Part shown: piece by piece, positions 63 to 62,061 of the stretch
Numbering within the stretch: the first letter of the stretch is position 1
Layout: every line of letters begins with the position of its first letter
Assembly (NCBI RefSeq): GCF_002215035.1
Contig: NZ_NKFP01000006.1
Location: forward strand, 3,377,080 to 3,441,079
DNA length: 64,000 nucleotides
Origin: Leptolyngbya ohadii IS1
GTDB taxonomy: Bacteria; Cyanobacteriota; Cyanobacteriia; Elainellales; Elainellaceae
Direction: 5' to 3'
Notes under the pieces: generated by a model
Seen by the model: only the letters and a program-made list of their open reading frames with translations
The model's database searches: none
Told to the model about the DNA's origin: nothing
Made by a program: the position numbers and the translations under genes

Positions 63-268
63 TGTACATGTCCTTTAAATAATTAAACGACACTTTTAAA
101 GAATTAATTTCCATTTTTTCAGAGGAAGCCAGAGGCGTATAATCCTTACCCGAAAAGGGTTGTGCGCCTCTTAATCTTGCTAAATTTTCTCTGACCGCTT
201 TTAAAGCAAAATACTTCATTTTTACTTAGGGACTTGCTAAAGTGCTTTAAAGCAAAATACTTCCATTT
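63..268. repeat. CAST left end with TnsB-binding-type repeats
   Basis: The end starts with TGTACATGTCC at 63. Three related repeats follow: 92-113 (ACTTTTAAAGAATTAATTTC...), 197-222 and 243-267, the last two sharing TTTAAAGCAAAATACTTC. The first is nearly identical to the reverse complement of the two long repeats at the right end. The third repeat runs to within 20 bp of the tnsB start codon at 288, so TnsB binding could also repress tnsB. That regulatory role is inference. Confidence 0.8.
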
Positions 269-287: not shown

Positions 288-2333
288 ATGGCTGCTCAAC
301 CAGAGGAAAATAATCAAGTCCCTGAGTCGTTAGATTCGGATTCGCAGGAAAAAACGCAGGAGCACCCTCCTCTCCTGCTCAACGAGATTTCACCAGAACT
401 GCAACGAAAGATTGATCTGATTGATGCGGTAATGCAGGCTTCCAATAAGAAGGCTCGCCAGGAAGCGATCGCCAGGGCAGCCCAGGAGCTAGGGCTAACA
501 GAGCGCACAATTCGGGGTCTAGTTCGGCGTGTCGAAAGCGGTGAAGGACCCGCCGTGCTTGCAGTGGGTCGTCAAGACAAAGGGCAGTTTCGCATTGCAG
601 AACATTGGTTCAAGTTTATTATTGCCACCTACGAATGGGGACAGAAGCAAGGTTCCCGAATGAATAAGCATCAGGTTCACAGGAAGCTGGGAACATTAGC
701 AAAGTTAGGTGAGAAGCTGCGAGACAAGAGGTATAGAAAGCTATTCATGGGTCATCGCAAGGCACGTGAAGACTTAGTTGCAGGCGAATACCCATCCCAT
801 GTCACTGTCTATAAAGTCATTGATTTCTACCTGAAGGGAAAGCACAAGAAGGTCCGTCACCCTGGCTCTCCGGCAGAAGGACAAATCATTCAAACGACCG
901 AAGGAATTTTGGAGATTACGCACAGTAATCAGATTTGGCAGTGCGATCACACCAAGTTAGATATTCTGGTAGTCGATGAGAAGGGTGACACGATATTAGA
1001 AATTGACGACGACGGCGAAGAGGTCTGGGGACGCCCTTACTTGACTCTGATTGCAGACAGCTACTCCGGGTGTGTCGTCGGCTTTCATCTTGGGCTAGAA
1101 CCCGCAGGCTCCCATGAAGTGGGTCTTGCGCTACGCCACGCAATGCTGCCCAAACAGTATGGACCGGAGTACGAACTTGAGGAGAAGGAGATTGTTTTTG
1201 GGAAACCAGAGTACTGGCTAACCGATCGCGCAAAGGAGTTCAAATCCAACCATCTTCAACAAATCTCAATGCAGGTCGGTTTCAAACGGCGGCTACGAGC
1301 GTTTCCTCAGGCAGGTGGCTTGATCGAGACGATCTTTGACACCCTGAATAAGGAATTGTTATCGCTGTTGCCAGGCTACACCGGGTCTAATGTTCAAGAT
1401 CGTCCTAAAGATGCAGAAAAATATGCCTGCATCACGCTTAAAGAGCTTGAGAAGCTTTTAGTACGGTACTTTTTCAATACTTACAACTGGCTGGACTACC
1501 CCAGAGTCGAGGGTCAAAAGCGACATGAACGTTGGCGTTCCATGTTGCTGTCAGAACCAGAAGTTTTAGACGAGCGGAGTCTGGACGTTTGCTTGATGAA
1601 AGTTTCTCACCGTAAGGTCGAAAAGTACGGCAGCGTTGAGTTTGCCCGTCTGATCTATCAGGGTGACTGTTTAATTCCCTATCAGGGTGAGGAAATCTCT
1701 CTGCGATATGACGAGCGGAACATCACCGCGCTCCTAGCTTACACCCGCCCCGCAGGAGGACAGCCCGGTCAGTACATTGGCGTTGTTCGTGCGCGTGATT
1801 TGAAGCAAGACCAAATTTCGCTGGAGGAACTGCGCTGGTACAAACGGAAACTGCGTAAGCGCGGTGTGAAGGTTGATCATGATTCGATCGTCGCCGAACG
1901 TATGGGACTGTATGAATTTATTGATGAGAAGCGGAAGTCCAAGCGACAGCGCCGCAAGCAGGCAAACCAGGAGCATCAGCAGCAAACGAACGCCTCCACA
2001 GTGGTTGAGCTTTTCCCTCAGAACCAGTCGGTTGAGACGCCTCCAGATTCTCAACCCGACGCCGAAGCCTTTGTCAGCGAGTCCCAAACTGAGGACAGGA
2101 CGAACCCTCCTCCACCATCGCAGTCAGTTCCTGAGCCATTGCCCCCGGTTGACGCTCCAGACAGTACAGTTGCGGACCTGGTGGGGGCTGAAGATGCCTC
2201 CGTGGTGATTGTGGACGAGGTGTCAACGCCTGACGAATCCTCTGATGACTCCTCTTTGTCTAATACTGTAGACTTTTCTCATGAGCCAGTCGTTGCTTAC
2301 GATTGGGACCAACTTCTAGCAGATAACTGGTAA
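288..2333 (+). CDS. tnsB: TnsB transposase (Mu/Tn7-type DDE integrase) of the CAST
   Basis: TnsB binds the transposon ends and catalyses strand transfer. The protein is 681 aa from the ATG at 288. An in-frame TTG at 234 would place the first codons inside the end repeat, so I prefer 288, which has GAGGA a few bases upstream. An N-terminal HTH region (about residues 40-80) is followed by the RNase H-like core with the three acidic residues visible: D220 in QCDHT, D313 in LTDRAKEF and E347 in GGLIETIF. The stretch SNHLQQI...LPGYTGSN is typical of V-K TnsB. The C-terminal 100 residues are acidic and Ser/Pro rich, as expected for the tail that contacts TnsC. There is no TnsA nearby, which is normal for V-K elements. 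tnsC begins 6 bp downstream. Confidence 0.93.
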   Translation: MAAQPEENNQVPESLDSDSQEKTQEHPPLLLNEISPELQRKIDLIDAVMQASNKKARQEAIARAAQELGLTERTIRGLVRRVESGEGPAVLAVGRQDKGQFRIAEHWFKFIIATYEWGQKQGSRMNKHQVHRKLGTLAKLGEKLRDKRYRKLFMGHRKAREDLVAGEYPSHVTVYKVIDFYLKGKHKKVRHPGSPAEGQIIQTTEGILEITHSNQIWQCDHTKLDILVVDEKGDTILEIDDDGEEVWGRPYLTLIADSYSGCVVGFHLGLEPAGSHEVGLALRHAMLPKQYGPEYELEEKEIVFGKPEYWLTDRAKEFKSNHLQQISMQVGFKRRLRAFPQAGGLIETIFDTLNKELLSLLPGYTGSNVQDRPKDAEKYACITLKELEKLLVRYFFNTYNWLDYPRVEGQKRHERWRSMLLSEPEVLDERSLDVCLMKVSHRKVEKYGSVEFARLIYQGDCLIPYQGEEISLRYDERNITALLAYTRPAGGQPGQYIGVVRARDLKQDQISLEELRWYKRKLRKRGVKVDHDSIVAERMGLYEFIDEKRKSKRQRRKQANQEHQQQTNASTVVELFPQNQSVETPPDSQPDAEAFVSESQTEDRTNPPPPSQSVPEPLPPVDAPDSTVADLVGAEDASVVIVDEVSTPDESSDDSSLSNTVDFSHEPVVAYDWDQLLADNW

Positions 2334-2339
2334 CTGAAA

Positions 2340-3275
2340 ATGGCTCAACCTGCTCCACAACCCAACGCACAATCGCAACCAGTCCCCAGCCAGTCCGCCA
2401 CTAAGCCAGCGCCACAACAATCTGTCCTGGCATTGCCCAAGCGATCGCCAGAAAACCAGGCTGAAGTTGAGCGAATTCGGGACAGCGAGACTTACAAAGA
2501 GGTTTCTCGTGATCAACTTTTGTTTAAGTGGTTGTCGTCACAGCAGGAATCGCGTGCCAGTGGCTTTGTGTACGGAGTCAATTTTGGAGATCTGAGGAAA
2601 TCCTGCCAATTTTATCAACTGCTATACGTGCGGAAACGGGGAAACCTGTTTCTCACTCCCACACCAGTTCTCTATGCTGAGGTTGAACAGTTTGGTTCCC
2701 CGACTGACCTTTTTATTGGAATCACTCAGGCAGGAGGCAATCCCTTCTCAGGTATGGGATCGTTACGAGATTTGAGGAAACAGGCGGTCGGCACACTTAA
2801 AAAACTTCAAACCAGCACACTGATTATTGGCTATGCAGAAGTTTTGTCCCCTGAGGCGCTCAAAGAACTTGTAAAAATGAGGCGAGATCTAAAAATCTCT
2901 ATTATTCTTGCGGGTTCTATGTGCTTATCTGAGTTCTTTGACAAGCTCGATAAGCAGCGTGGTCCAAAACACAAGGACATTAGAAACGCTTTTCTGGAGT
3001 CCCACCAATACCCCTGCTTCGAGAAGAATGAGACAGAAGCCATTCTCGAAGGCTGGGAGAATCAAGTCTTAAGCTCCTGGTCTAAAAAGCTTGATCTGAA
3101 GAAGATTCCTGGTGTTCCTAACTTCCTCTACACTCGCTGTGGCGGACAGGCTGAACCGCTGTACGAGATGCTCCGCAAGATAGCGATCCAAACGTTGGAC
3201 GATCCAAAGCTGCAAATTAGTACAACCACTCTCACAGAGCTATTTGCAGCAAGGCGGGTAGCGGTAAGCACGTAG
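2340..3275 (+). CDS. tnsC: TnsC-like AAA+ regulator with degenerate nucleotide-binding motifs
   Basis: Position between tnsB and tniQ, length (311 aa against about 276 for the Scytonema protein) and collinear similarity identify this as TnsC, which normally forms ATP-dependent filaments linking Cas12k/TniQ to TnsB. The catalytic landmarks are unusual. The Walker A region (residues about 79-88) reads GVNFGDLRKS, without the GxxxxGK[ST] spacing. The Walker B region (161-168) reads LIIGYAEV where LIIDEAD is expected, so both acidic residues are lost. The sensor-1 segment is LAGSMCL, and the segment expected to carry the arginine finger (FLESHQYPCF) has no Arg. The first 35 residues are a Pro/Gln/Ala-rich extension. 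The reading frame is intact, so this is not simple decay. It may be a pseudo-ATPase version. An inactive transposon is the alternative. Confidence 0.8.
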   Translation: MAQPAPQPNAQSQPVPSQSATKPAPQQSVLALPKRSPENQAEVERIRDSETYKEVSRDQLLFKWLSSQQESRASGFVYGVNFGDLRKSCQFYQLLYVRKRGNLFLTPTPVLYAEVEQFGSPTDLFIGITQAGGNPFSGMGSLRDLRKQAVGTLKKLQTSTLIIGYAEVLSPEALKELVKMRRDLKISIILAGSMCLSEFFDKLDKQRGPKHKDIRNAFLESHQYPCFEKNETEAILEGWENQVLSSWSKKLDLKKIPGVPNFLYTRCGGQAEPLYEMLRKIAIQTLDDPKLQISTTTLTELFAARRVAVST

Positions 3276-7828: not shown

Positions 7829-8059
7829 ATGAAAGGACTTATGAACCCACAAGAAGCGGACGAGCACTCTGTCCAGCAGGGCGATAGTAATCTTCCTTTA
7901 AGCCCCAAGAAGAAAGATTTAGACTCTGAGACACTTCCGGTTCTGAATGCAGAGGGAACATCAGAACCACGTGAGCCTCAACCTTGCACTCAGGCTTTAA
8001 GCAATGAAATCTGGCAGATTGACCACACCGCAACAGACTTGTTAATAGTTGCTCCCTAG
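7829..8059 (+). pseudogene. Fragment resembling the TnsB N-terminus and first catalytic motif
   Basis: A 76-residue frame ends in LSNEIWQIDHTATDLLIV, which matches SNQIWQCDHTKLDILVV around the first catalytic Asp of TnsB at 288-2333. Its start (NPQEADEHSVQQGDSN...) is acidic and Gln/Ser rich like the TnsB N-terminus, and about 150 residues between are missing. The frame then stops. I read it as a scrap of a second tnsB, left by an earlier element or a failed duplication. A weaker echo (PEADEYS...VDHSAILMLF) is at 8121-8246. Confidence 0.45.
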
Positions 8060-8242
8060 ATTTGACTGATTTCTAGGACGGGTAAAGCAAACTGGCTATC
8101 GCATCAGGGACAGAGAAGTAATGGTCCTACCTGAAGCAGATGAGTATTCCGACAGGATAGCGGTGGATCATTCTGCAATTCTCATGCTTTTTCAACACGT
8201 GAGGTCGAGGAACACCATGTCCAGGCAAAGACAGACTGCGGG

Positions 8243-9214
8243 TTAATAGCAGCCCAGCAATCCCAGGGAAAGGGTTTGACACAGGGAAACTTGTCGTCGC
8301 TTTGCTTCGGCTCGATCAATGACTTGCTGCTTGCGTTCCCGCCAAGGCAAGGTGTCCGGTAACTGAGCCGCAGTTGCGATCGCATTTTCTGGTTCTCCCT
8401 GTGTGAGCAGACGTTCAGCCTGGTTCCAAATGTCTTCGTACTGCTGCTGAAGCCGTTTTTCCTGCACCATTTGGATAAGCGAGATCCGGTTATGCGTCCA
8501 GAAGGGGTGATCTTGGATTTGCTGGGCATGGGTTAGTGCGACATCGAACTGTTTCAGGGTTAAAGCTTCCTGAGCCGCAACCCAGTGCTGATTATTCTCA
8601 CTCCAGAGTTGCCGCCACGATTGTATCTGTGCCTGTGCTTCTGGATAAGATGGGCTGCTTGGTGGAATTGCGCCTGCGATCGTCAAAGCCTGATTAAGCT
8701 GGTCTACCGGCTGCCAGTAGTAGCTCCACGCAATTTCTAAAATCCGTTCCGACCATTGCTCGATGAGTTGCTGTGCTTCATTGTATTGCGCTGAACCAAC
8801 TGCAATCTGGTTCACAGTTTCGATCGCTTGAGCAAATTCTCCTTGTGCTGCCTGCTGTTTAGCTTGTTCAAGCTGAAAGGTTGCTAGATTCGTTTGGCAG
8901 TTTCTCAAGTAGACTTGTGCGGTCTGATAAACATTAGCCTGGGGTAATACCTGCGCTGTGTGGGTAACACACCCGTGATAATCGCCTGCTGTTGCCAGGG
9001 CAAAGGCAGTGTTTGCGATCGCCTGCTGTTCCTGCTCGAATTCCTGTTTGGACTGCTGGCGCAGGTAAGCATCTGTAGTGATCAGGCATCCTACGGCTCC
9101 CGGAATAACTGCCGCCGTCGTCGCGATCGTGAGTGCAGTTGCAATGCTGATTTTAAGGATTTTGGGTGCTGCATCAGAACTCATGTTCCCGTTTCCCTGG
9201 TCCGTTGAGATCAT
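8243..9214 (-). CDS. Membrane-anchored helical-repeat protein of unknown function
   Basis: 323 aa. One N-terminal transmembrane helix (about residues 18-50, ILKISIATALTIATTAAVIPGAVGCLI) is followed by a long, Gln/Ala-rich helical region with TPR-like pairs such as GDYHGCVTHTAQVL, GEFAQAIETVNQI, KQFDVALTHAQQI and GEPENAIATAAQLP. The architecture suggests a periplasm-facing or thylakoid-side scaffold. ATG codons at 9214 or 9184 (MSSDAAPK) could both start it. The gene runs opposite to the genes before it, and no operon partner is evident. Confidence 0.7.
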   Translation of the reverse strand: MISTDQGNGNMSSDAAPKILKISIATALTIATTAAVIPGAVGCLITTDAYLRQQSKQEFEQEQQAIANTAFALATAGDYHGCVTHTAQVLPQANVYQTAQVYLRNCQTNLATFQLEQAKQQAAQGEFAQAIETVNQIAVGSAQYNEAQQLIEQWSERILEIAWSYYWQPVDQLNQALTIAGAIPPSSPSYPEAQAQIQSWRQLWSENNQHWVAAQEALTLKQFDVALTHAQQIQDHPFWTHNRISLIQMVQEKRLQQQYEDIWNQAERLLTQGEPENAIATAAQLPDTLPWRERKQQVIDRAEAKRRQVSLCQTLSLGLLGCY

Positions 9215-9467
9215 GAGTCTTATTGGATGACGAAATCAGGTTGCCTTCCAGTGAAAATCCGGGAGTTTGAGACGAAGTTAGAGGAATTGCAACTGATAAA
9301 TGACAAATGGTGCTGTCGCTTGAGGTTTAGGGCGATCGTGCCTGAGCTTGGGTTGTTAGCGGAGAATTAGGCAAAAAAACTATCTTCCCGAAAATCAGCC
9401 CAAAATTAGATTTAACTTCAGGGAAGTGAAGTTAGCGTTTTCTAAAATCACAGTTGCTAGTACAGCT

Positions 9468-11831
9468 TCAGTTATTGGTATCTATCGCATCTATGTACAT
9501 CACCATTGATAGTCTCACTCGCTCTACTTGCTTTGGTGCTTCCATTTGAAGGAAGAGGTGAATTGCCTTTTGAAAGTATTTATTACTGTTCTCAACTTCA
9601 CCTATTGCTTGATAGCTTAATCCTAGCTGATAATAAGCTTCTGCTAAATCAGGCTTTGCTCCTATCTCACAGAATTTTTTTATTGCCTCTAAATTGTATA
9701 AAATTGATAATTCAAGATCTTTTTTCTCCCTATAAACCTCTGCTAGTCCTAGTAACGCAAGAGATTTAGAATGAGCTTTTCCACTAGCTTCGGCAAAAGA
9801 ATTTGCTTCAAAATAGAGTTCTGTAGCCCTTTCAAGCTCGCCTAAATTTTTATATGTATTTCCTAAATGGATTGGAGCATAACTTTTACGCCATGAGCCT
9901 TTAATTTCTGACATCTGGCTTTGAGCTTTGACGACAAACTCTCTAGCTCGGTCTTGAAAGCCCAAAAGCGAGTTTAAAGATGCTAAGCAAGTCCAGGCAC
10001 CTATAGTAAATTGATGATTGACTGTATTTTCTGTATCAACAACAAGTTGCTCAAAAATCCTTACTGCTTGCTCAAGCTCACCTAAAGAGATTACACATAA
10101 CCCTAAGTTAAATAGAGCATTTGCTTCAATCCCTTTAAGCTGGCTATAGTCATCGATATTAGTTGATTTAGATAGTAGGAGATTAACTACAAGTCTTCTA
10201 CTTTCACGAAGATACTCAATGCCTTTCTGAATATCTCCTGTTATCCAATGCAAATCGCCTAAAAGAAGATAGAGTTGCCCTAATAAAAGTTTGGAATTTA
10301 TATATTGTATAACGGTATTTACGGCAGTCCTAATTTTTAGAAGTAAGCCAAAGCCATACATCGCATAGCCAAGCGACCTTCCAAGAGAGAAACCTCCCTC
10401 CCATTTATGATGGCGTTCTCTAATAATTATACTTGTCGCTTCTTCAAAGTCGTTAATCTGTACATAGTGATAGTATGCTTCCATAGCCCTTAAAGCATCT
10501 TCCACAGACTCAATGGTTTTGACATTGCCCGTCCAAAAAGCTGCTGAATTAGAATATGTTATTTCCAAATCCTTACTCTTTCTTAAGCGATTGATCGCTT
10601 CTTCTCGAATTATTGGATGCAACCAATACTCTCTATCTTCAGACTCCACCAGCGATCGGTCCTGCAACGCCCTAACAATGCGCCCTTGTCGATTCTCTGG
10701 CACATCCCAAAGCAAGCAGAGAAGTCCCCCGATCGGCACAGTTGGAACGTCTTGATAGCGATAGCAACCCATTCGACAGAGTAAGTGATAGGCATCTAAA
10801 TCAATTTGTTGCAGGCGATCGAACTGCTGAGTAACTAAATCCTCCAGGTCTCGCTCGATGAAGAGGTCGTTCTGATTCGCATGCCAGTAGGCTGCAACAT
10901 CGCCGGAGTAATCTTCTAAAATTGCACCTCGAATAATTTCCATTGCTTTGGCATTTCCCCCATAGGCATTATGCAGAGCAGCGAAGGCAGGGGTATCGAT
11001 TTCCAAGTTACGGGACTGGAAGAACTGCTCCCAAGCTATGATGTCGAGGCTTTTAAGAATATAGTGTTCAACAGTAATGCTAGATTCCCGTAAGCGTTCG
11101 CGGGTCGTAATCAGGGTAGTAGACTGTACTGAAGGATCAGCAACGACGCGCAGCAGTTCAACATAGCGACGATGCGGCTCAATCAATTTTCCAGTCGAAT
11201 CGAGAGCAGGTTCAAGGTTATCGATGAGGATGCCAATTCGTTCAGCCTGGAGTTTGCGTTTGAGCCGATCGAGCGACACGAAAAACTCCCGTCCCGGCTC
11301 TTCCCCCAATTGCCGCAGCTTTTCCTCCAGCAGACTCTCGATCGAAGCAATGTCTTTGGTCTCTTTGGCGATCGGAAACTCCAGGTAGGAGCCGAACTCC
11401 TGTTGCAGGTACTTGCGTGCCAGCGTCGTCTTGCCGACACCCCCTCTAGCCTGGATCACAATCACTTTTGCGCCTCGCTCAACCAACAGGTTAAGGTCAG
11501 CGATCGCTCCTTCGCGTCCTACAAAATTCGGATCAGCTTGAACCTGAAGCCGTGCGGAGGAAATCAAGTCAGCCTCATCCAGTTGCAGCCCCAGCGTTTT
11601 GAACAAACAGCGAATTGATTTAGGGTCTACGCCCTTCTGTGCCTCTAAGATTTTGCCAATCGTCCCTGGGTCGAGTCCGTTCGGCGGTTTCTGGGCGATC
11701 GTTAGCTCCCTCAGCTTTTCCTGGGTGCAGCGGACTTCGTGTTGCAGTTCCCATGCGGCGATCGCCCGCTGAAGTCGGCTCAGCCCCTCAGGGGTCAGGA
11801 TACGACCGCGATTGCGCTGTTGAGAATTCAT
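9468..11831 (-). CDS. NB-ARC STAND ATPase with N-terminal HTH and C-terminal TPRs
   Basis: 787 aa. Residues about 10-90 form a cyanobacterial HTH-like module (GLDPGTIGKIL...DPKSIRCLF). An NB-ARC NTPase follows with P-loop GGVGKTT (130-136), Walker B-like IGILIDNLEP and STTLITTRER. A winged-helix stretch comes next, and then C-terminal TPRs (ANALFNLGLCVISLGELEQAVRIFEQL, APIHLGNTYKNLGELERATELYFEA, AEAYYQLGLSYQAIGEVENSNKYFQKA). Proteins of this build are signal-sensing switches, and many bacterial STAND proteins act in phage defence. No separate toxic effector domain is obvious, so defence is inference from fold and neighbourhood. The C-terminal half is AT-richer than the N-terminal half, as if domains of different origin were joined. 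Confidence 0.82.
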   Translation of the reverse strand: MNSQQRNRGRILTPEGLSRLQRAIAAWELQHEVRCTQEKLRELTIAQKPPNGLDPGTIGKILEAQKGVDPKSIRCLFKTLGLQLDEADLISSARLQVQADPNFVGREGAIADLNLLVERGAKVIVIQARGGVGKTTLARKYLQQEFGSYLEFPIAKETKDIASIESLLEEKLRQLGEEPGREFFVSLDRLKRKLQAERIGILIDNLEPALDSTGKLIEPHRRYVELLRVVADPSVQSTTLITTRERLRESSITVEHYILKSLDIIAWEQFFQSRNLEIDTPAFAALHNAYGGNAKAMEIIRGAILEDYSGDVAAYWHANQNDLFIERDLEDLVTQQFDRLQQIDLDAYHLLCRMGCYRYQDVPTVPIGGLLCLLWDVPENRQGRIVRALQDRSLVESEDREYWLHPIIREEAINRLRKSKDLEITYSNSAAFWTGNVKTIESVEDALRAMEAYYHYVQINDFEEATSIIIRERHHKWEGGFSLGRSLGYAMYGFGLLLKIRTAVNTVIQYINSKLLLGQLYLLLGDLHWITGDIQKGIEYLRESRRLVVNLLLSKSTNIDDYSQLKGIEANALFNLGLCVISLGELEQAVRIFEQLVVDTENTVNHQFTIGAWTCLASLNSLLGFQDRAREFVVKAQSQMSEIKGSWRKSYAPIHLGNTYKNLGELERATELYFEANSFAEASGKAHSKSLALLGLAEVYREKKDLELSILYNLEAIKKFCEIGAKPDLAEAYYQLGLSYQAIGEVENSNKYFQKAIHLFLQMEAPKQVERVRLSMVMYIDAIDTNN

Positions 11832-12012
11832 AGGCAGACAGCGACCTTCCTTCGGCAGGAACGGTAGAGGGCAACAACCTTATTCTCCGGCAGATAACCC
11901 TTCTTTTTTCCGATTTTAAGGAAATTTCTGGCTTGTCGCTAAAAAGAGCTTCATTCAACGTTACTCCGCTGCGATCAGCAGTGTGATCATTGCAGCATAG
12001 GTTTGGATTGAC

Positions 12013-12954
12013 CTATCGCGGTAACTCTGGACGAAGCTCGCTCTGCTGGAATTGCCTCCAGGCATCCTGCAACGCGGCAGGAGCAGCATTAGTCGTATCG
12101 TAAACCGCAATCACGTTCGTCAGATTTCGCCCTGTTGGATACAAAACGCTGCCTCGGTTCGCCAATGCCACCGAAGCACCCCCGTCTAAATTCATTGCCT
12201 GAGACGCTCCGATATCGCGCATGACTTCTGCTGCCCGCTGAAGCGATACCGAGTCAATGAACGTCACCATCAACAGTTGCTTCCCATCCTGCGAAAACCC
12301 GACAGCAGAGCGCGCCGCAGGTGTTTGAGGGTTTACCAGGTGAGCAGTGGTAAAGCCTTCAGCACGAACGCTCTCAGCCGTAACCGAGACTCGTCCATTC
12401 GTCACCAACCGAGGACCACAGGTGATCGAGAACCAGTATTGGCTCCACTCCCGCGATCGCTCCTCCAGGTTAGGCGTGATCATTTCGGGCTGGTTGTTCT
12501 GCCGTAGGCTGAGGGTTGTACCCCGTCTTTCCCAGGCACGGTAGCGCAGGAAGCGACCTCCAGCAATCATATTGCCCATCACTTCTCGGTGTGCCGCCGC
12601 CGTATTGAAGAACGTTCCATTCGCGACCACGGCGGCTTGTAAGCGTCTGACCATTTGCGGAAATGGTTCGTCCCCGTAGGTTCGCTCGGTGCTATTCGCT
12701 TGGAGAGCGTTATTGGCTAAAGCGATCGTGACCAGGGTTTGTGGATGACTCAGATCGACGCAGGTTTGATAGAACGCAATGCCCCGCAGCGATCGCTGAG
12801 TCGTTTGAACCGGAGCATTCGTCTGAGCAATCACTGTTTTTGTCATTGAGAATGCCGTCGTGAATGCTGCACCTCCTAGTAGGAGAAACGATCGCCTCGA
12901 TAGCTTGAAGCGTAGAGCGGCAGGAGTTAGAGGAGGCATCAGCACTGACCACAA
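12013..12954 (-). CDS. Phosphodiester glycosidase family protein, exported
   Basis: 313 aa, related to the NAGPA/DUF2233 family (cleaves sugar-phosphodiesters; often annotated exopolysaccharide biosynthesis protein). The N-terminus has a twin-arginine-like signal LSRRSFLLLGGAAFTTAFS. The family core is visible as ANGTFFN, ITCGPRLVTNGRV, SAVGFSQDGKQLLMVTF and the C-terminal MNLDGGASVALAN. It probably acts in the periplasm or outside the cell. It lies just downstream of the phosphorothioation island but has no evident link to it. Confidence 0.85.
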   Translation of the reverse strand: MWSVLMPPLTPAALRFKLSRRSFLLLGGAAFTTAFSMTKTVIAQTNAPVQTTQRSLRGIAFYQTCVDLSHPQTLVTIALANNALQANSTERTYGDEPFPQMVRRLQAAVVANGTFFNTAAAHREVMGNMIAGGRFLRYRAWERRGTTLSLRQNNQPEMITPNLEERSREWSQYWFSITCGPRLVTNGRVSVTAESVRAEGFTTAHLVNPQTPAARSAVGFSQDGKQLLMVTFIDSVSLQRAAEVMRDIGASQAMNLDGGASVALANRGSVLYPTGRNLTNVIAVYDTTNAAPAALQDAWRQFQQSELRPELPR

Positions 12955-13053
12955 TTAGTTTGGCAATAAAATTCATGGTATCGATCCCGACCGAAGGGAG
13001 CAGGCATCCCCCAATCCACTGCATCAGGACGATCGCGTGTATTACTGTACGGC

Positions 13054-14208
13054 TCAAGGAACAGTACACATTCTTTGTCGAACTTGCATTGCGGCATTAG
13101 ACAATAAGTGGCTTGCTTGCTCGATTTCTTCCTCTGTTGTAAATTTCCCCAGTCCAATCCGAAGTGCTCCCTCAATCAATGGCTCAGCTAGCTTAATTGC
13201 CTGAAGGACATGGGACGGTGCCTCGATCCCGGACGAACAGGCGGAACCTGTAGAAATGGCTAGCTGGTGACGAACCCTAGCGATAACTGCACTATTGGGA
13301 ATGCCAGGAATTGAGATGTGCAGATTTCCGGCTAAACGATGTTCTACATCTCCGTTAATCACTAGACCAGGAATTTTTGCTGACAGCATGTTCTGAAGCT
13401 GATCGCGCTTGGTTGCGATCGCCTGCTCATCGTCGTCCATCTCCAGCGATCGCAACCGACAAGCTTCACCCAGTCCCACAATTCCTGGAACGTTAAGAGT
13501 ACCCGATCGCATTCCCTTCTGATGTCCGCCTCCAAACATGAGCGGCTCTAGGTGATAACCTCGACGGACAACTAAAGCTCCGACTCCTTTGGGTCCATAG
13601 AGCTTATGGGCAGAAATTGCTAGATAAGTGATACCCCACTCCTCAAACTGCATAGGAATCTTCCCAACAGATTGAGAGCCATCGCAGAGGAAGGGAATGT
13701 TATGGCGTTGTGCGATTTGCCCGATCGCCTGAATGGGATAAATATTGCCGATTTCATTGTTGGCTGCCATGACACAGAGCAGGGACAGACCCTCAGCACA
13801 AACTCGCTCCAGGTGATTAAGATCGAGCCTTCCTTGGCGATCGACTTGCAAAAAAATTAGGTCTGTCTGACCTCGCTGTTGAAGGGCATGACAGGTATCA
13901 AGAACGGCTTTGTGTTCGAGCGGTAACAGGGCAATGCGATGAGGCTTTTCAGGATTCTGGGAAAGGCTTCCTTGAATTACGAGGTTGATACTTTCGGTCG
14001 CGCCCGATGTCCAGATGATTCCTCTGGAGGATGATCCGACTAAGTTAGCAACCTGCTTAGCGGCTTGCTTGACTGCTGCTTCAGCCCGATCGCCCCACTC
14101 ATGATCCGTGCTGCTGGCGTTGCCGAATTCTGTGGTCATGTAATGGTAAATGCGATCGGCAACTCTAAAATCGACAGGGGTTGTAGCGTGATAATCCAGA
14201 TAGATCAC
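13054..14208 (-). CDS. sspA: Cysteine desulfurase of the DNA phosphorothioation module (SspA/DndA-like)
   Basis: 384 aa, PLP-dependent class V aminotransferase fold that takes sulfur from cysteine. Motifs are YLDYHATTP at the start, SGATESINL, the PLP lysine in SAHKLYGPKGVG and the persulfide cysteine in STGSACSSG. Its start is only 5 bp downstream of the HNH gene stop, so the two are likely cotranscribed. In this setting it most likely supplies sulfur for phosphorothioate modification of DNA rather than general Fe-S assembly. The role is inferred from neighbours (PP-loop enzyme, DUF4007 and large ATPase). Confidence 0.85.
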   Translation of the reverse strand: MIYLDYHATTPVDFRVADRIYHYMTTEFGNASSTDHEWGDRAEAAVKQAAKQVANLVGSSSRGIIWTSGATESINLVIQGSLSQNPEKPHRIALLPLEHKAVLDTCHALQQRGQTDLIFLQVDRQGRLDLNHLERVCAEGLSLLCVMAANNEIGNIYPIQAIGQIAQRHNIPFLCDGSQSVGKIPMQFEEWGITYLAISAHKLYGPKGVGALVVRRGYHLEPLMFGGGHQKGMRSGTLNVPGIVGLGEACRLRSLEMDDDEQAIATKRDQLQNMLSAKIPGLVINGDVEHRLAGNLHISIPGIPNSAVIARVRHQLAISTGSACSSGIEAPSHVLQAIKLAEPLIEGALRIGLGKFTTEEEIEQASHLLSNAAMQVRQRMCTVP

Positions 14209-14213
14209 GTAAG

Positions 14214-15395
14214 TTAAGCTGCTGGTGAAGGTTGCCAGAGTTTAAAGCCCTGATTAGTTGCTATGGAGAGTAGCGGATTAATGACTGTATCATAGGAACT
14301 TCTTAATGTATCTATATCGAGTAGAGCGTCTTGATCAGGAATTCTGAGAGCGTCAATATAAGTTTCTGTTGTTTTGCGCCACTCCGCTTTAGCCATTTTC
14401 TCATGGGAAATTCTTAAGCTAAGATGCTGTGCCGAAACAAATTTATCAAAGAAGGTGGAAGGAGGTAAATCATTAGACTTTGAGGAATTAACTTCGGGTG
14501 TTGTTGGAACTAAATTCCATAACTGATCATGTGCAACGAATGACCAGGGCAAATAGTGATCAAGGGAAAATTTATCAGGTTCTATTTTTTGATTGGAATA
14601 GATACAATAAAAATCTGTATTTTCTAAAACTCTCCTCCAATAAGTTGTTTGCTTTGATAGTGACTCTCTCTTATTGGGTGCAAATAGCTTATGAATAATT
14701 CCGGGAGTGTTGGGATTACGTTTCTGCATATAACTCAGCCATTCCCAGGAAGCCCATCCTCGAACAATCGAGTAATGCTTTTCTAGATAATTAGCCCAGG
14801 ATGGATGCAAGATGATTGCATTACAAGAACTGTAGCTATCCGAATTAAAGCGGTAGAGGGGTTTAAGATCACCGAAATAAGTTTCTGCTACTTTGGGAAC
14901 TCTAATATCCAAATTGTTGCCCTGGCTTTTCTTTTCGATTCCCTGTAGCTCACTCTCTAAAAAAGGAACAATTAGACGAAACGGAACGTATCTCTTTAAT
15001 CTCTGGCTTATCTTTTTGAGATTTTGACCTTCGATGGTTGAGCGTAATAGCTTTTTATCCGTATCAGTAAACTTTAAAACAGGTTCTTCAACCTTCAAAT
15101 TTAACAAGTCAAGACTTTCGGCAATTTTATCTCGTGTTCCAAAAGATAATTTAAAGTAAGTATGTGGATACCAAGCATTCGCCAGCATTTCAACAATGAT
15201 TTCGTCTAAAGATACATCTTGAGAAACATCGAAATTGCGTCTTTTGAGAATATCTAGGATAGAAATAAAGAAAATATATTTATAGGAATTTGTTGTATCT
15301 GCAAATAATCTAGCGAGTGCAGCAATATTTACTTCCTCAGAAGCAGGAAGTTTTCTAGCGTCAGGGACGGAATATATTGAAGAATTCTCTGCCAT
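14214..15395 (-). CDS. HNH endonuclease domain protein, candidate effector of the phosphorothioation system
   Basis: 393 aa. The C-terminal third carries an HNH-like core: CIYSNQKIEPDKFSLDHYLPWSF (His after Asp), then WNLVPTTPEVNSSKSNDLP, the usual Asn-rich second half. The N-terminal 250 residues are helical and unfamiliar. It lies directly upstream of the cysteine desulfurase. Known Ssp systems use separate restriction effectors (SspE, with DUF262 and DUF1524, or SspFGH). None of these is seen here, so this nuclease may take that place. The restriction role is inference. Confidence 0.7.
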   Translation of the reverse strand: MAENSSIYSVPDARKLPASEEVNIAALARLFADTTNSYKYIFFISILDILKRRNFDVSQDVSLDEIIVEMLANAWYPHTYFKLSFGTRDKIAESLDLLNLKVEEPVLKFTDTDKKLLRSTIEGQNLKKISQRLKRYVPFRLIVPFLESELQGIEKKSQGNNLDIRVPKVAETYFGDLKPLYRFNSDSYSSCNAIILHPSWANYLEKHYSIVRGWASWEWLSYMQKRNPNTPGIIHKLFAPNKRESLSKQTTYWRRVLENTDFYCIYSNQKIEPDKFSLDHYLPWSFVAHDQLWNLVPTTPEVNSSKSNDLPPSTFFDKFVSAQHLSLRISHEKMAKAEWRKTTETYIDALRIPDQDALLDIDTLRSSYDTVINPLLSIATNQGFKLWQPSPAA

Positions 15396-46968: not shown

Positions 46969-48905
46969 GTACGCCCGGCATGGGCGTGAACTAATGGGGT
47001 GAAAGTCCCCTGGAGGAGAACCAACGTCCAAATGCTCGAAAGTCCTTGGAGCCGAGTGACGACAACTCCTAGCTTAAGGCAAGGGCACTTCCGCGAGGAA
47101 GGGTCTGAAGGAAGCCAGCGGCAAACCTGCAAGCCGACGAACAGAAACGTCATAGAAGGCTGAGATAGTCCTGGGGCGAGTTGGCACAACACAACAAAGC
47201 CCTCTGGTTCAAGGAACACAGTAAATGACGCGGTTGTGCAGGGACAGTTCACGTCCTTATCCGGGGAGGTCTGTGCGGTTGCGGTCTGGAGGTCTATGGG
47301 AGTCTGACTGAGGTCTCGCGGGAAACGGCGAGGGAGCCACAGAACCCTAAGGAGAACCAGACAGCGCGGTTGAGGGCAACTTCAAGCGTTCACCGTGCAG
47401 AAGTCAGCAGAGTCCATAGTAGTTCCCGCAGGGGAACGAAGGGACGAACATGAACGAACTAAGGAGGAGCGATGAACAACTCAAACACATTTATGAACCC
47501 GGAGGGGGGAGATGGCGTTTGGCGTGCTGACAGAGAGCCAGCCTTAGACAACCTGATGGCGCGAGTCTTAGAGCGCGACAATGTGCAACGAGCCTGGCAA
47601 CGGGTGAAGTCCAACCAGGGTGCACCCGGCAGTGACGGGATGAGCCTAGAGGAATTCCCGTCTTATGCTCGCGAACATTGGTATGAGATTCGCCAATCCC
47701 TGATGGAGGGCAGCTATCAACCTCGTCCGGTGCGGCGGGTTGTAATCCCCAAGCCGAAAGGCAAGGGAGAGCGCAAGTTGGGTGTCCCTTGTGTCCTAGA
47801 CCGGGTAATCCAGCAAGCCATCCTCCAAGTGCTGACGCCTCTGTTTGACCCTGGATTCTCCGAGTCAAGCTATGGGTGTCGCCCAAATCGCTCGGCTCAC
47901 AGCGCTATCCGACAGGTGAAAACGATCCTGAAGGCGGGTTATCGCATCTGTGTCGATCTGGATCTGGAGAAATTCTTTGATACGGTCAACCACGATGTCT
48001 TGATGTCCCGCGTTGCCCGCAAAGTCGCTGATAAAGTGCTGTTGCAGCTAATTGGTCGTTACCTGCGAGCCGTGGTTTTGGTGGGAAGCACCGTTGAACC
48101 GACCGAATGGGGAACACCGCAAGGGTCTCCGCTTTCACCCCTGTTGTCCAACATCCTGCTGGATGACTTGGATAAGGAACTGGAAGCAAGAGGGCATCGC
48201 TTTGTTCGCTATGTAGACGACCTGGTGATCCTGGTCAAAAGTAGACGGGCAGGGCGACGGGTGATGGTGAAAATTAGCCGTTACCTCACTCAAGTGCTCA
48301 AGCTGAAAGTGAATCGGGAAAAGAGCCGAGTGGTCAAGATCGAGGATCTGAATTATCTGGGATTCACGTTTCGGGGAATTCGTATCTTCGCCTCTGATGC
48401 TGCCATGCAAGCGTTCAAGCACCGACTGCGCGGCTTCACCTCACGCAGTTGGGGTGTCTCAATGGCAGAACGATTCGAGCGATTGAACCGATACTTGCGC
48501 GGGTGGATGAATTACTTTGGCATTTCCCAGCATTACAGCCCAATCGAAGAGCTAGACGGTTGGTTGAGGCGACGGATTCGGATGTGCTATTGGAAGCAGT
48601 GGCGCAGACCGAGAACCCGCATTGCTAACTTGCTCAAGCTTGGAACCAGTAAGCGTCACGCGATTTTGACCGGCATTAGTCGCAAAGGCTATTGGCGGTT
48701 GTCGAAAACGTTGGCGACGCAAACGGGAATGACGAATGAATGGTTGGAGCAACAGGGTTTGTTATCGATTCGGCAGCTTTGGATGAAAGTTCAAGGATAC
48801 GCTTGAGTCATCAATGTTGTTTGCGCATCTTCATGAACCGCCTGTTGCGGAGCCGCATGGCAGGTGGTGTGGGAGGGAAGGGTTAAACACCCTTCTCGAC
48901 CCGAT
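46969..48905 (+). mobile_element. Group IIC intron inserted in an attC site
   Basis: The 5' end region reads GTACGCCCGGCATGGGCG, the start type of class C introns (GT at 46967 belongs to the exon if the attC site is to be rebuilt). It is followed by GGGGTGAAAGTCCCC and a structured 500-nt leader before the maturase gene. The 3' end has GGAGCCGCATGG..., then a hairpin GAAGGGTTAAACACCCTTC and CGACCCGAT. The intron runs opposite to the attC orientation, as known for IIC-attC introns. The boundary may be off by two bases. Confidence 0.8.
47472..48806 (+). CDS. Group II intron reverse transcriptase/maturase
   Basis: 444 aa. AAGGAGGAGCG precedes the ATG. The RT domain holds GVPCVLDRVIQQAI, SYGCRPNRSAHSAI, WGTPQGSPLSPLLSN and the catalytic YVDD (247-250). 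The maturase domain has FRGIRIF...RLRGFTSRSW and LRRRIRMCYWKQW. There is no HNH endonuclease domain, consistent with class C introns that insert at DNA hairpins. It is encoded inside the intron at 46969-48905. Confidence 0.93.
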   Translation: MNNSNTFMNPEGGDGVWRADREPALDNLMARVLERDNVQRAWQRVKSNQGAPGSDGMSLEEFPSYAREHWYEIRQSLMEGSYQPRPVRRVVIPKPKGKGERKLGVPCVLDRVIQQAILQVLTPLFDPGFSESSYGCRPNRSAHSAIRQVKTILKAGYRICVDLDLEKFFDTVNHDVLMSRVARKVADKVLLQLIGRYLRAVVLVGSTVEPTEWGTPQGSPLSPLLSNILLDDLDKELEARGHRFVRYVDDLVILVKSRRAGRRVMVKISRYLTQVLKLKVNREKSRVVKIEDLNYLGFTFRGIRIFASDAAMQAFKHRLRGFTSRSWGVSMAERFERLNRYLRGWMNYFGISQHYSPIEELDGWLRRRIRMCYWKQWRRPRTRIANLLKLGTSKRHAILTGISRKGYWRLSKTLATQTGMTNEWLEQQGLLSIRQLWMKVQGYA

Positions 48906-59223: not shown

Positions 59224-59475
59224 GTCGCAATCGCCCTCTCAGCAGTGGGTGGGTTGAAAGACGATTCAGGATCTCAATGAGGTGCAGCCTGGGTTTGTCG
59301 CAATCGCCCTCTCAGCAGTGAGTGGGTTGAAAGGGATTTGCATATTTCTTCCAATGCAATCAGTCAGGTCGCAATCGCCCTCTCAGCAGTGGGTGGGTTG
59401 AAAGTACGGTGCTCTGCTTTTGCTACTTCAGTGTCGTAGTCGTAATTGCCCTCTTGGCAGTAGGTTAAGATGTCA
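59224..59475 (+). CRISPR. Short type V-K CRISPR array (three repeats plus a degenerate one)
   Basis: 37-nt repeats start GTCGCAATCGCCCTCTCAGC and end GGGTGGGTTGAAAG, at 59224-59260, 59297-59333 (one change, GTGAGTGGG) and 59368-59404. A degenerate repeat begins at 59439 (GTCGTAATTGCCCTCTTGGC). Spacers are 36, 34 and 34 nt. I found no match for the three spacers within this window by eye. The first spacer contains no tRNA sequence. Confidence 0.93.
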
Positions 59476-59479
59476 CGGT

Positions 59480-59516
59480 AGTAGTGGGTAGGCTGAAAGG
59501 CGCGTTGCGATCGCAC
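59480..59516 (+). CRISPR. Detached homing guide: truncated repeat plus 17-nt tRNA-matching spacer
   Basis: A 20-nt partial repeat AGTAGTGGGTAGGCTGAAAG (59480-59499) is followed by GCGCGTTGCGATCGCAC (59500-59516). The latter equals 17 nt of the tRNA-Ala gene on the minus strand (59864-59848). After base 17 the match ends (TTC against CGC). Short-spacer, separated guides of this kind are known to direct V-K elements to tRNA genes. Confidence 0.93.
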
Positions 59517-59643: not shown

Positions 59644-59804
59644 AAATTTTGGAAATTAATTCTTTAAAACTGGTTTTCAGGATGAATGCGAAGCATTCTC
59701 TTACGAAGAATTTACTGAGTCACGGAGGAATCAGCATTCCAGCAAATTTTGGAAATTAATTCTTTAAAACTGCTGTTTAATTCTTTAATGTACATTAATG
59801 TACA
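59644..59804. repeat. CAST right end with TnsB-binding-type repeats
   Basis: Two copies of AAATTTTGGAAATTAATTCTTTAAAACTG-like sequence lie at 59644-59672 and 59743-59772, with a shorter TTTAATTCTTTAATGTACA at 59776-59794. The terminal TGTACATTAA unit is doubled (59789 and 59799). The end is 8 bp from the 3' end of the tRNA gene. Confidence 0.85.
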
Positions 59805-59812
59805 AGGATCAA

Positions 59813-59885
59813 TGGAGAGTAGGAGATTCGAACTCCTGACCTTTGCGGTGCGATCGCAACGCGCTACCAACTGCGCTAACTCCCC
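59813..59885 (-). tRNA. tRNA-Ala(CGC)
   Basis: 73 nt, full cloverleaf on the minus strand. The acceptor pairs GGGGAGT with ACTCTCC, including the G3-U70 pair that identifies alanine. D-arm GCGC...GCGC. Anticodon stem TTGCG/CGCAA with loop ATCGCAC, anticodon CGC. T-arm AGGAG/CTCCT with TTCGAAT. CCA is not encoded. The anticodon arm is the target of the homing guide. The gene itself is intact because insertion occurred 8 bp beyond its 3' end. Confidence 0.95.
59848..59867 (-). other. Protospacer and PAM for the homing guide
   Basis: Protospacer 59848-59864 (minus-strand sense) with GTA directly 5' of it (59865-59867), fitting the GTN PAM of Cas12k. The distance from PAM to the transposon end (59805-59864) is 60 bp. 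Confidence 0.92.
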
Positions 59886-59958: not shown

Positions 59959-62061
59959 CTACAAATGCAGCAGTTTTCTCAGACGCGATTCCAGCTCAGA
60001 TGTAATAATCCGATCGCCCCGCTCCAGTTTGCCGATATAGTCCGCGCTCAGATCTAGAAATCCGCCCAGTTCCTTGCGGCTCCAGCCCAACTGCTCTCTG
60101 GCAATCCGCACTTGATCGCCCGTTAACTCCTCCACGGGGGGAAGCTCAAGCTGTTTGGGCTTGCGGGGTTCCTTCATCTTTGCCAGCAGTCCCGGAATTG
60201 GGTGAGGTGGTTTAATCGTGAGTTTGGCTTGCAGGAGGCGATCGATCACCTTCACTTTGCGCCAGTCCTCCGGTTTCGGGGCAGTGCTGCTTGGTTGCAG
60301 CCAGTCGGGATAGGTGGCGGGGTCATACTCAATTTGCCAGCCCAGGCTGAGGAGTAGCTTGAGGGCACGGTTCCAGCGATTTTTTAGATCCCGTGCCCGG
60401 TGTTTGTCCTGCAATGCCTTGTCGATTTCTGTGCGGGGCAAAACTTCCTCCAGCAGGCTAATCACGCGATAGTCGTAGGGGTTTTGATTGTGGACACGAA
60501 TCCGCGCATCGAGCGTAAGCTGAATTGCCAGCCGCAGTGCCATCTCATGATGGTAGGGATCGATTTTCAGGATATCCTTCGCCAGATAGCCAAACTGATG
60601 CAGCGCCTCCTTTGCCCGACTGCCCGCCCGATTTAGAAAATGCTTTGTCCAGAGTCCCGGACTGACCGTGATATAAACTTCATCCGGCTTTTCGATCTTG
60701 CCGCTCACCCAATCAAACTGACCGTGCAAATCGATCAGCACATCCCACATTCGACCGATCGGCGTACTGGCGTCAATTTGGCGTTTCCCCCGCCCCTCGA
60801 TCCAAACCGATTTTACCAGCAAACAGGACAGCGCATAAGCCGTCGTTGCCACCGCATTGCGTTTATCCGGCAGGCTGGTGCTGTGGTTGCGATCCCAGCC
60901 CAACAGCGGAATCATATCGCTGGCTTTGAGGGTAAAGGTACTCTTCCAGGGTTCTTCCTCTTCCATTGTGCGGGCAGCAAAAATCAGCTGAAGCTTCACC
61001 GTGTCAAAGCCAAACTTGTTGATAATTTGCTCCGCCGCTTCCCAGGGCAGTAGCGCAATGTCACCGGGATTCGTGATGTAGTGTTCGATGTAGTTATTTG
61101 GATTGGTTTTGCTGCGGTAGCGAAAGACGGCGAGCTGCTCGGCATTTTCTTCCCATAGGTCGGGGCGTAGCTGGGCGCGAATACTGCTGGCGATCGGGAT
61201 TGCTGTGGGAATGACCGAAATCGGGTCAAGCGTCAGACTGGTGCTGGTCATGGAGATTGGCTTTTGCCGCAGACCCAGCAATTTATCCATTTCTTGCAGG
61301 GAGCAGTTGGGCAAATTAAATCCCTGCAAAATCTTCTTGGTAATATCCTGACAGTAAATTTGCGCGAGCAGGCTAATGCGTTCCTGAAGGGGCGGCGGGC
61401 ATTCTTCGAGCTGATGCTGAATCTGCTGCACAAGCTGATCCTGTTCGGTAATCGCAGGTTTTCCCAGCTTGTCTAAGTTTTCGGCAATCCAGATAATTAA
61501 ACTATTACCGATCGTCCTGGCAAACTCTTCCCAAAAGCCTGCGTAATCAAAGAATCCATCCAGTGAACTTTTTAGATACGATCGAATCTTCTCCTGATTC
61601 AAATTAAGTTCAACTTTCTTTTCCCCCGTCTTCTTCTGAGTTATCACCTTAAACTGAGGCAAACTGGTATCGATCGCCTCAATTCCCTGACCCTGGAGCG
61701 TCACCTCAACTTTGTGCTGATAAATTCGCAAAAGCTGCTGCAAAAGCTGCTCCGTCACCAGATCCGGCAAAGCAGATCGATCGCGCAGCAAGGCAATGAG
61801 TTGATTCAGCGTCTCCGTCGTCAGTACATCCTGCGTCAGGCTTACCCAATCAATTCCAGAAGCTTGCTCTGTCTGACAAGATGTGGCTGTGTCAGCCTTT
61901 TCTAAAGGCACGATCGCCGTTTCTTCAGAATAGCCACCGTGACCGATCGCAGAAAATTCCCCAGCCCATGCATCCAGGTTAACCGTCCCCTCTGGATCAA
62001 AAATATAAAGGCTTTCCCCTAACTCATTAGCGGTATTCTGCGACATACCAATCTCTTTCAT
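59959..62061 (-). CDS. Large protein with C-terminal Xre HTH, chromosomal flank
   Basis: 700 aa (695 if the second ATG at 62046 is used, which has the better spaced purine-rich site). The last 60 residues form a Cro/C1 HTH (GDQVRIAREQLGWSRKELGGFLDLSADYIGKLERGDRIIT). The rest is an unfamiliar, mostly helical cyanobacterial protein. It follows the kinase gene on the same strand after only a few bases, so the two probably form an operon. It lies outside the transposon. Confidence 0.75.
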   Translation of the reverse strand: MKEIGMSQNTANELGESLYIFDPEGTVNLDAWAGEFSAIGHGGYSEETAIVPLEKADTATSCQTEQASGIDWVSLTQDVLTTETLNQLIALLRDRSALPDLVTEQLLQQLLRIYQHKVEVTLQGQGIEAIDTSLPQFKVITQKKTGEKKVELNLNQEKIRSYLKSSLDGFFDYAGFWEEFARTIGNSLIIWIAENLDKLGKPAITEQDQLVQQIQHQLEECPPPLQERISLLAQIYCQDITKKILQGFNLPNCSLQEMDKLLGLRQKPISMTSTSLTLDPISVIPTAIPIASSIRAQLRPDLWEENAEQLAVFRYRSKTNPNNYIEHYITNPGDIALLPWEAAEQIINKFGFDTVKLQLIFAARTMEEEEPWKSTFTLKASDMIPLLGWDRNHSTSLPDKRNAVATTAYALSCLLVKSVWIEGRGKRQIDASTPIGRMWDVLIDLHGQFDWVSGKIEKPDEVYITVSPGLWTKHFLNRAGSRAKEALHQFGYLAKDILKIDPYHHEMALRLAIQLTLDARIRVHNQNPYDYRVISLLEEVLPRTEIDKALQDKHRARDLKNRWNRALKLLLSLGWQIEYDPATYPDWLQPSSTAPKPEDWRKVKVIDRLLQAKLTIKPPHPIPGLLAKMKEPRKPKQLELPPVEELTGDQVRIAREQLGWSRKELGGFLDLSADYIGKLERGDRIITSELESRLRKLLHL

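Follow-up and report, generated by a model that had tools for sequence, protein, structure and literature searches.

In a type V-K CAST of the cyanobacterium Leptolyngbya ohadii IS1, the AAA+ protein TnsC is replaced by a variant, from now on referred to as TnsC', in which the sequence elements of the ATP site are missing. We consider it probable that TnsC' is a V-K CAST TnsC that has lost ATP binding and hydrolysis together with most of the known DNA contacts and that it still acts as a protein scaffold for TnsB at the place marked by TniQ and the Cas12k-guide RNA complex. TnsC' belongs to a clade of site-less proteins that is under purifying selection, and close relatives of the element have transposed very recently. 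All positions refer to the window, meaning the whole stretch of 64,000 nucleotides that was analysed.

As read from its sequence, the element in the window is a type V-K CAST consisting of cas12k, a tnsB-tnsC-tniQ operon, a CRISPR array and a homing spacer, and it extends from about position 63 to about 59804, or about 59.7 kb (Table 1). TnsB, TniQ and Cas12k, which looked intact in the initial annotation, indeed have reading frames that are open throughout and match their ShCAST counterparts. The first ATG of tnsB lies at position 288, the open reading frame itself opens with a TTG at 234, and the protein ends in the hook-like motif YDWDQLLADNW. Cas12k has 800 amino acids compared with 639 in the ShCas12k chain; a relative of 797 amino acids is found at L029. 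With two candidate ends per side, the 5-bp flanks read TCAAA or GTACA on one side and TTAAT or AGGAT on the other, and do not match. The two TGTACA motifs at 59789-59804, taken together with the missing target duplication, possibly reflect insertion beside an older element end. An Rfam scan of the window at gathering threshold returned the tRNA and group II intron parts only, the latter being intron domains with a reverse transcriptase-maturase in the cargo at 47087-48806. Further, a short open reading frame at 7976-8059 ends in SNEIWQIDHTATDLLIV, which on visual inspection resembles part of a TnsB-like catalytic domain, a putative remnant of another element. When an empty site was sought in the same-genus genome G026, the right flank matched from window position 59959 on, with no left-flank match and no tRNA gene in the 16 kb around.

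Table 1. Positions of features of the element in the window and of related 4-kb elements.
Feature	Position	Strand	Evidence or remark
Left transposon end	63..73	+	TGTACATGTCC; conserved terminus among relatives TGTCCATTAAA; read directly and compared with left ends of relatives
tnsB, transposase	288..2333	+	phmmer vs ShTnsB 7svw, E 2.7e-105
tnsC', pseudo-AAA+ TnsC, 311 aa, ATG start	2340..3275	+	Open frame to stop
Degenerate Walker A, GVNFGDLRKS	2574..2603	+	Alignment with ShTnsC
Degenerate Walker B, LIIGYAEV	2820..2843	+	Alignment with ShTnsC
Arginine-finger stretch IRNAFLE, Ala at finger position	2979..2999	+	Alignment with ShTnsC
tniQ, 186 aa	3339..3899	+	Pfam TniQ 38.4 bits; ShTniQ E 5.6e-34
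cas12k, 800 aa	56342..58744	+	phmmer vs Cas12k 7n3o, E 3.8e-63
CRISPR array, three 37-nt repeats	59224..59404	+	Repeat search; start-to-start spacing 73 and 71
Homing (anchor) spacer, 3' of degenerate repeat	59500..59516	+	17/17 to tRNA gene, PAM GTA
Right transposon end, two TGTACA motifs (inner end 59794, outer 59804)	59789..59804	+	
tRNA-Ala(CGC), homing target; protospacer 59848-59864	59813..59885	-	ARAGORN, Rfam tRNA
Small-element copies in G485	C1:2291164-2295136, 3116140-3120114, 4250444-4254418		
4-kb element of T. variabilis	NC_007410 132928-136932 (L216 3001-7005)		

The reading frame of tnsC' is intact and its product is collinear with TnsC, as initially proposed, residues 40-300 aligning with residues 22-270 of the ShTnsC chain (phmmer, E 1.3e-9). 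The ShTnsC P-loop GESRTGKT aligns with GVNFGDLR, where Lys is replaced by Leu and Thr by Arg, Walker B IIDEAD aligns with IIGYAE, where Asp-Glu is replaced by Gly-Tyr, and the finger residue R189 aligns with Ala. With these residues at the key positions, the description of a TnsC without recognisable Walker A, Walker B and arginine finger holds. One detail needs correction: the finger stretch had been said to contain no Arg, and KDIRNAFLE does hold one, while the finger position itself is not Arg. The Pfam AAA_22 match begins past the P-loop (protein 99-193, profile 32-123 of 130). An AlphaFold model calculated from 13 aligned sequences (pLDDT 75.2, pTM 0.58; no ligand in the model) has ShTnsC 7plh as its best PDB match (Foldseek, E 5.7e-11), with Z 15.4 and rmsd 14.9 over 245 aligned residues in VIA-align. 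Judging from sequence and predicted structure, the window encodes a full-length TnsC-family protein with an AAA+ fold. From the missing motifs, we infer that TnsC' no longer binds ATP and has no ATP-driven filament turnover.

Relatives of the window protein were searched for in the order, with any match in 12 of 36 genomes, in genome contigs (13 loci), in the phylum, where 32 of 386 genomes match at E <= 1e-10, and in the family of G076, where 101 of 217 genomes match at E <= 1e-30. In eleven of the 13 loci tnsC' is open and has the degenerate site, which is also visible at L051 despite a broken frame; L052 has no readable tnsC reading frame. In the family of G076, 25 of the 217 genomes pass a cut of E <= 1e-80, chosen because no match falls between 3.3e-85 and 9.2e-70, and all those with readable motifs show the degenerate site. 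As a count of genomes with the clade, 25 is a lower bound because, among five matches read below the gap, four are canonical and one (L182) is a broken clade member. Named-locus genomes and family-search genomes overlap under different G numbers, so that this count and the 19-genome count given below are not additive.

The main tree contains 54 rows, of which 25 lack the site (window included), 22 are canonical and 7 have Walker A but no Walker B Glu. The labels canonical, DN and dead were set by motif ahead of tree building, and the searches were seeded with clade members. Broken tnsC' (L030, L051, L052, L054, L058), truncated canonical genes (L061, L065, L067) and repeats of one locus were left out, and eight open clade members from the family search were added (L163-L166, L170 and the small elements of T. 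variabilis, G485 and G517). All 25 site-less open-frame rows fall on one side of a branch with support 100/97, and the question raised initially, namely whether a clade shares these substitutions, can thus be answered in the affirmative. In a 45-row tree with 16 site-less rows the clade has support 99/98, and 98/94 once the motif columns are removed. The Walker A Lys is found in none of the 25 clade rows (Leu in 23, Val in 2), Walker B Asp is kept in two and Glu in none, and finger Arg in 0/25 compared with 22/22 canonical rows, which, being labelled canonical by motif, all keep Walker A Lys, Walker B Asp and Glu and finger Arg. The replacements are regular, with Leu for Lys in 23, Gly for Asp in 21 and Asn for Glu in 17 of 25 rows. 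Two basal rows (L033 of G003 and L057 of G204) have lost the Lys and kept the Walker B Asp that is lost in the other 23, and site loss therefore looks stepwise. Apart from the clade, seven V-K-like TnsCs (L036, L037, L038, L039, L080, L081, L082) keep Walker A, lack the finger Arg and read Asp-Asn (six) or Asp-His (one) at Walker B; they form no single clade in the tree, and L036 and L037 come from the window genome.

Among the 16 clade rows of the 45-row tree, a TnsB-like reading frame lies just upstream in all and a TniQ-like one downstream in 13, with none in the DNA read at L042, L048 and L056. Cas12k follows the operon on the same strand in the window, G009:C58, G177, G204 (frameshifted), Scytonema sp. 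NIES-4073 and Dendronalium; Gloeothece verrucosa PCC 7822 carries Cas12k on a plasmid, annotated as two reading frames.

Conservation of the former site bears on whether TnsC' might still bind ATP through other residues. Besides the predicted AAA+ fold, such binding would be in keeping with the Nostocales sequences, in which the former site is strongly conserved (Walker A region mean entropy 0.13 bits vs 0.31 elsewhere). Clade-wide, however, this region is at 1.28 bits vs 1.27 elsewhere, compared with 0.99 vs 1.40 in canonical TnsC, and all three catalytic elements have been lost jointly, even the arginine that a neighbouring subunit would offer, which makes residual ATP binding very unlikely. 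In the clade, conservation is still a little higher in the Walker B region (0.90 bits) and the finger region (1.05 bits) than elsewhere.

The initial annotation had also considered a dead-end copy that keeps its frame, and had proposed a dN/dS near 1 as its mark. Instead, eight Nostocales tnsC' genes give dN/dS values of 0.083 to 0.308 with a median of 0.125 (28/28 pairs). At five of these eight loci tnsB gives a median of 0.168 (10 pairs), and at four of them tniQ gives a median of 0.096 (6 pairs); canonical tnsC gives 0.084 (12/21 pairs computable, the others saturated), and five tnsC' outside Nostocales have a median of 0.157 (4/10 pairs computable). The window tnsC' compared with L029 gives 0.128, an unreliable value since dS is saturated (3.2). 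Clade members are under purifying selection, and decay of the clade as a whole is ruled out by the clade search, the tree and dN/dS. A dead copy that keeps its frame by chance is extremely improbable for the window element itself: some relatives are broken and the window copy has no clear target duplication, but the changes are shared by one clade, dN/dS is far below 1 wherever it can be measured (dS being saturated for the window), relatives jumped recently, and all four window genes, the array and the homing spacer are in order.

Besides the ATP site, most of the lysines that touch DNA in ShTnsC are, by alignment, lost in clade TnsC'. In the ShCAST transpososome, K103, K119, T121, K150 and R182 are described as touching DNA (PMC9876797). 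The position of K103 is basic in 0/25 clade rows, 22 of which have Thr, vs 19/22 canonical rows; that of K119 is basic in 0/25 vs 16/22, and that of K150 in 4/25 vs 21/22. Thr is found at the T121 position in 11/25 clade rows, and the R182 position is basic in 10/25, although it adjoins an insertion that makes the alignment unsure. Median core net charge is -7 in the clade (range -12 to 8) compared with +12 (2 to 14) in canonical TnsC (Mann-Whitney p 2e-8, relatedness ignored), the six rows of the window subclade ranging from +2 to +8 and 13 Nostocales rows from -7 to -12. A basic loop before the finger was considered as a substitute DNA contact; it looked promising for the subclade of the window protein, but is not shared by the acidic Nostocales rows and was rejected as a general explanation. 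For ShCAST it is reported that a K103A/T121A double mutant transposes more and R182A less (PMC9876797), and loss of K103 alone is therefore tolerated there.

The contact to the transposase appears to be kept. ShCAST TnsB is described as docking on TnsC via a 15-residue C-terminal hook (PMC9371665). Most canonical TnsB proteins end like DYEQMREDYGW and most of those beside tnsC' like DWNQFMRDNW or YDWDQLLADNW, with exceptions on both sides, the tail beside tnsC' following mostly D-W-N/D-Q/E...W. The persistence of the tail, altered in its own way, points to TnsC' as the place where TnsB still docks.

RNA-guided homing can be followed in the elements that retain Cas12k. The PAM of type V-K systems is GTN. 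In 5/6 tnsC' elements whose Cas12k end was read, a homing spacer matches the adjacent tRNA gene next to a GTA PAM, with 17/17 positions in the window, Dendronalium and G177 and 16/17 in G009:C58 and Scytonema NIES-4073; the targets are tRNA-Ala(CGC) three times, tRNA-Ala(GGC) and tRNA-Pro(CGG). In G204, no tRNA gene was found within 3.2 kb, and G076 and G016 were left out of the count due to a second tns set in between. The distance from transposon end to PAM edge is 54 bp in Scytonema and Dendronalium, 59 bp in G009, 54 or 61 bp in G177 and 60 bp (outer TGTACA) or 70 bp (inner) in the window, compared with 59, 61 and 64 bp in elements with canonical TnsC and 57 bp in one with a Walker-A-only TnsC. 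For this comparison nine further regions were read and four were usable; G600c, G426_224, G426_187 and G426_57 (three candidate ends) were not, and in G519 the spacer has two mismatches and no tRNA gene was found. That the spacing is unchanged speaks for a conserved geometry of the finished complex in tnsC' elements. Matching 5-bp flanks are found on both sides in Dendronalium (TATGG) and G009:C58 (AGTAA). When 13 upstream flanks were compared with one another, similarity was confined to about the first 210 bp upstream of tnsB, apart from a single 42-bp stretch; the elements are therefore probably separate insertions, and by parsimony the ATP site was lost before them.

Evidence of very recent movement comes from small elements that encode tnsB (614 aa), tnsC' (302-306 aa) and, on the opposite strand, a reading frame of ~180 aa. 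Profile searches found neither tniQ nor cas12k in them, and the ~180-aa frame has no Pfam match; it might be a regulator or target selector. Their tnsC' motifs read VVAVSCADLRKACQF, LI[IV]GNAHYL and VANTFLDWH, and in the 54-row tree they fall in the window's own six-row subclade with support 100/99. Genome G485 holds three copies of a 3,975-bp element that are 99.95-100% identical. One has the duplication ACTTG, while copies 1 and 3 have no matching flank duplication; in copy 1 tnsB is split, and in copy 3 the right end is tandemly repeated. Trichormus variabilis 0441 (G600) has two identical copies of a 4,005-bp version with duplications AATGC and CCAGG, and in T. variabilis ATCC 29413 two further copies are found, one each on plasmids A and C. 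The four copies do not differ at any of their 4005 bp and represent three sites, because the plasmid C copy and the 0441 plasmid copy share flanks. The plasmid A insertion in ATCC 29413 has TCAAC on both sides, and the matching 0441 plasmid has the same 3,490 bp without the element, with a single TCAAC and identical flanks, which is an exact empty site. A close relative carrying tnsB and tnsC' without tniQ or cas12k has thus transposed very recently, and the 4-kb element would have moved in Anabaena/Trichormus variabilis after the two strains parted. Around five copies of G485 and G600, the 34-36 kb examined contained no tRNA gene. The T. variabilis TnsC' (WP_011316413.1) is annotated as an ATP-binding protein, an annotation that its sequence does not support. 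T. variabilis 0441 (L221, L222) also contains 487-bp MITE-like copies, two identical ones with 5-bp duplications and a third without; their ends are only 82-88% like those of the 4-kb element, so that another element may drive them.

The absence of TniQ and Cas12k from the small elements might mean that TnsC' is losing its job too, being dispensable or only regulatory while TnsB transposes alone. We regard this as unlikely, since selection on tnsC' resembles that on tnsB (between T. variabilis and G485, dN/dS is about 0.165 for both genes; in the pairs with G517, tnsC' gives about 0.25 and 0.17) and the TnsB tail, which contacts TnsC in ShCAST, retains its form.

Alternatively, the canonical TnsC of another element could provide the ATPase in trans, TnsC' being a subunit or adaptor in a mixed assembly. 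Five V-K TnsC copies at other loci of the window genome are canonical; T. variabilis 0441 likewise encodes V-K TnsCs with canonical motifs, which might help in trans; and in Phormidium tenue FACHB-886 (L050) tnsB'-tnsC' and a short tniQ are immediately followed by a canonical tnsB-tnsC. Intact-motif V-K TnsC occurs in 7 of 19 clade genomes and an intact-Walker-A-only form in 2 more, but 10/19 show neither kind at E <= 1e-8; several of these ten are drafts or MAGs, some with broken tnsC'. G425, one of the ten, has one Tn7-like TnsC elsewhere in the genome, and the nearly complete Scytonema sp. NIES-4073 has, besides tnsC', one Tn7-like TnsC (GVPGVGKT) on another contig. G485, rated 100% complete in 3 contigs, has its three near-identical tnsB-tnsC' copies and no other V-K TnsC (E <= 1e-5), no match to the window TniQ (E <= 0.01) and no Cas12k (E <= 1e-5). 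Help in trans is therefore unlikely. As side observations, the order on one strand of the L050 region (7945-14610) is tnsB'-tnsC', the short tniQ piece and a canonical tnsB-tnsC-tniQ set, an arrangement of tandem or nested elements, and in the window genome L034 (G000:C7, 4587-10796) holds two canonical tnsB-tnsC-tniQ sets in tandem.

The favored reading, an ATP-independent scaffold, can be set against what is described for ShCAST. There, ATP-bound TnsC coats DNA and TnsB-stimulated hydrolysis trims the filament to the part held by TniQ-Cas12k, while a non-hydrolysable analogue leads to untargeted insertion (PMC9876797). In the proposed logic, this clearing is what gives specificity. TnsC', in contrast, would no longer spread everywhere on DNA to be cleared afterwards. 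It would assemble only where TniQ-Cas12k holds it or, in the small elements, where TnsB itself does so, and as a scaffold it would keep TnsB at the place marked by TniQ and the Cas12k-guide RNA. If TnsC no longer grips DNA alone, clearing would be unneeded. Sequence, phylogeny and the mobility of relatives thus support the earlier suggestion of a non-ATPase TnsC with a different assembly logic, in which loss of ATP binding would follow from the sequence; mobility is taken from relatives because the window copy has no recognisable target duplication. We counted several points against the scaffold: the ShCAST Walker B Glu mutant is reported to be severely compromised (PMC11406308), tnsC' is broken at L030, L051, L052, L054 and L058, tnsB is frameshifted at L045, L049 and G485 copy 1, and L048 and L056 have no tniQ despite room for it. 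More tentatively, and with somewhat less than even likelihood, a whole Tn7-like lineage might transpose without an ATP cycle, using a nucleotide-free TnsC scaffold that does not grip DNA and that lets guided targeting be specific without clearing, one branch having shed TniQ and Cas12k as well and spreading as a 4-kb TnsB plus pseudo-TnsC element.

Among known proteins, ShCAST TnsC (7plh/7m99) is one of the closest, being collinear along its length with 23-24% identity in the structure alignment and sharing the AAA+ fold and an operon tnsB-tnsC-tniQ with cas12k. Unlike it, TnsC' lacks the Walker A Lys, the Walker B Asp-Glu, the arginine finger and most DNA-contact lysines, and carries extra residues at the N terminus as well as a loop preceding the finger that is longer and variable. 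MuB and Tn7-family TnsC are likewise AAA+ adaptors between target and DDE transposase, and MuB comes third in the structure alignment of the TnsC' model, with other TnsCs next; both are ATP-dependent, and their ATP cycle controls target choice. The T. variabilis 4-kb elements share the window's own subclade and similar ends, and differ from the window element in the absence of tniQ and cas12k and in the extra ~180-aa frame.

The bare observation is already known. A 2024 review states that multiple V-K TnsCs lack canonical Walker motifs, some being without the Walker B Glu and some without a typical Walker A, so that they may not even bind ATP (PMC11406308, section 2.5). The window TnsC' fits this description; the section cited does not name members and says nothing of a clade, of selection, of DNA contacts being lost or of mobility. 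In our data the two kinds are separate, Walker A plus Asp-Asn/His rows on one hand and the clade without Walker A on the other. A description of 118 cyanobacterial V-K CASTs and their anchor spacers does not contain the word Walker (PMC9938897). Literature screened by title and abstract opening, with most subscription journals outside its scope, contained nothing on the function of such TnsCs or of the small elements, and no published account turned up of the clade, of the selection on it, of the DNA contacts it has lost or of the recent mobility.

In ShCAST, as in Mu and Tn7, target choice is partly governed by the ATP cycle of the AAA+ protein. The elements described here may insert DNA without needing the ATP cycle thought to control insertion. 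A natural lineage without the ATP site that shows RNA-guided homing geometry and recent jumps represents a direct test of the real need for ATP, and since the small element, with no more than two core genes, resides in a named culture strain, T. variabilis ATCC 29413, the ATP question is testable at once. Elements carrying tnsC' may further offer simpler integration tools.
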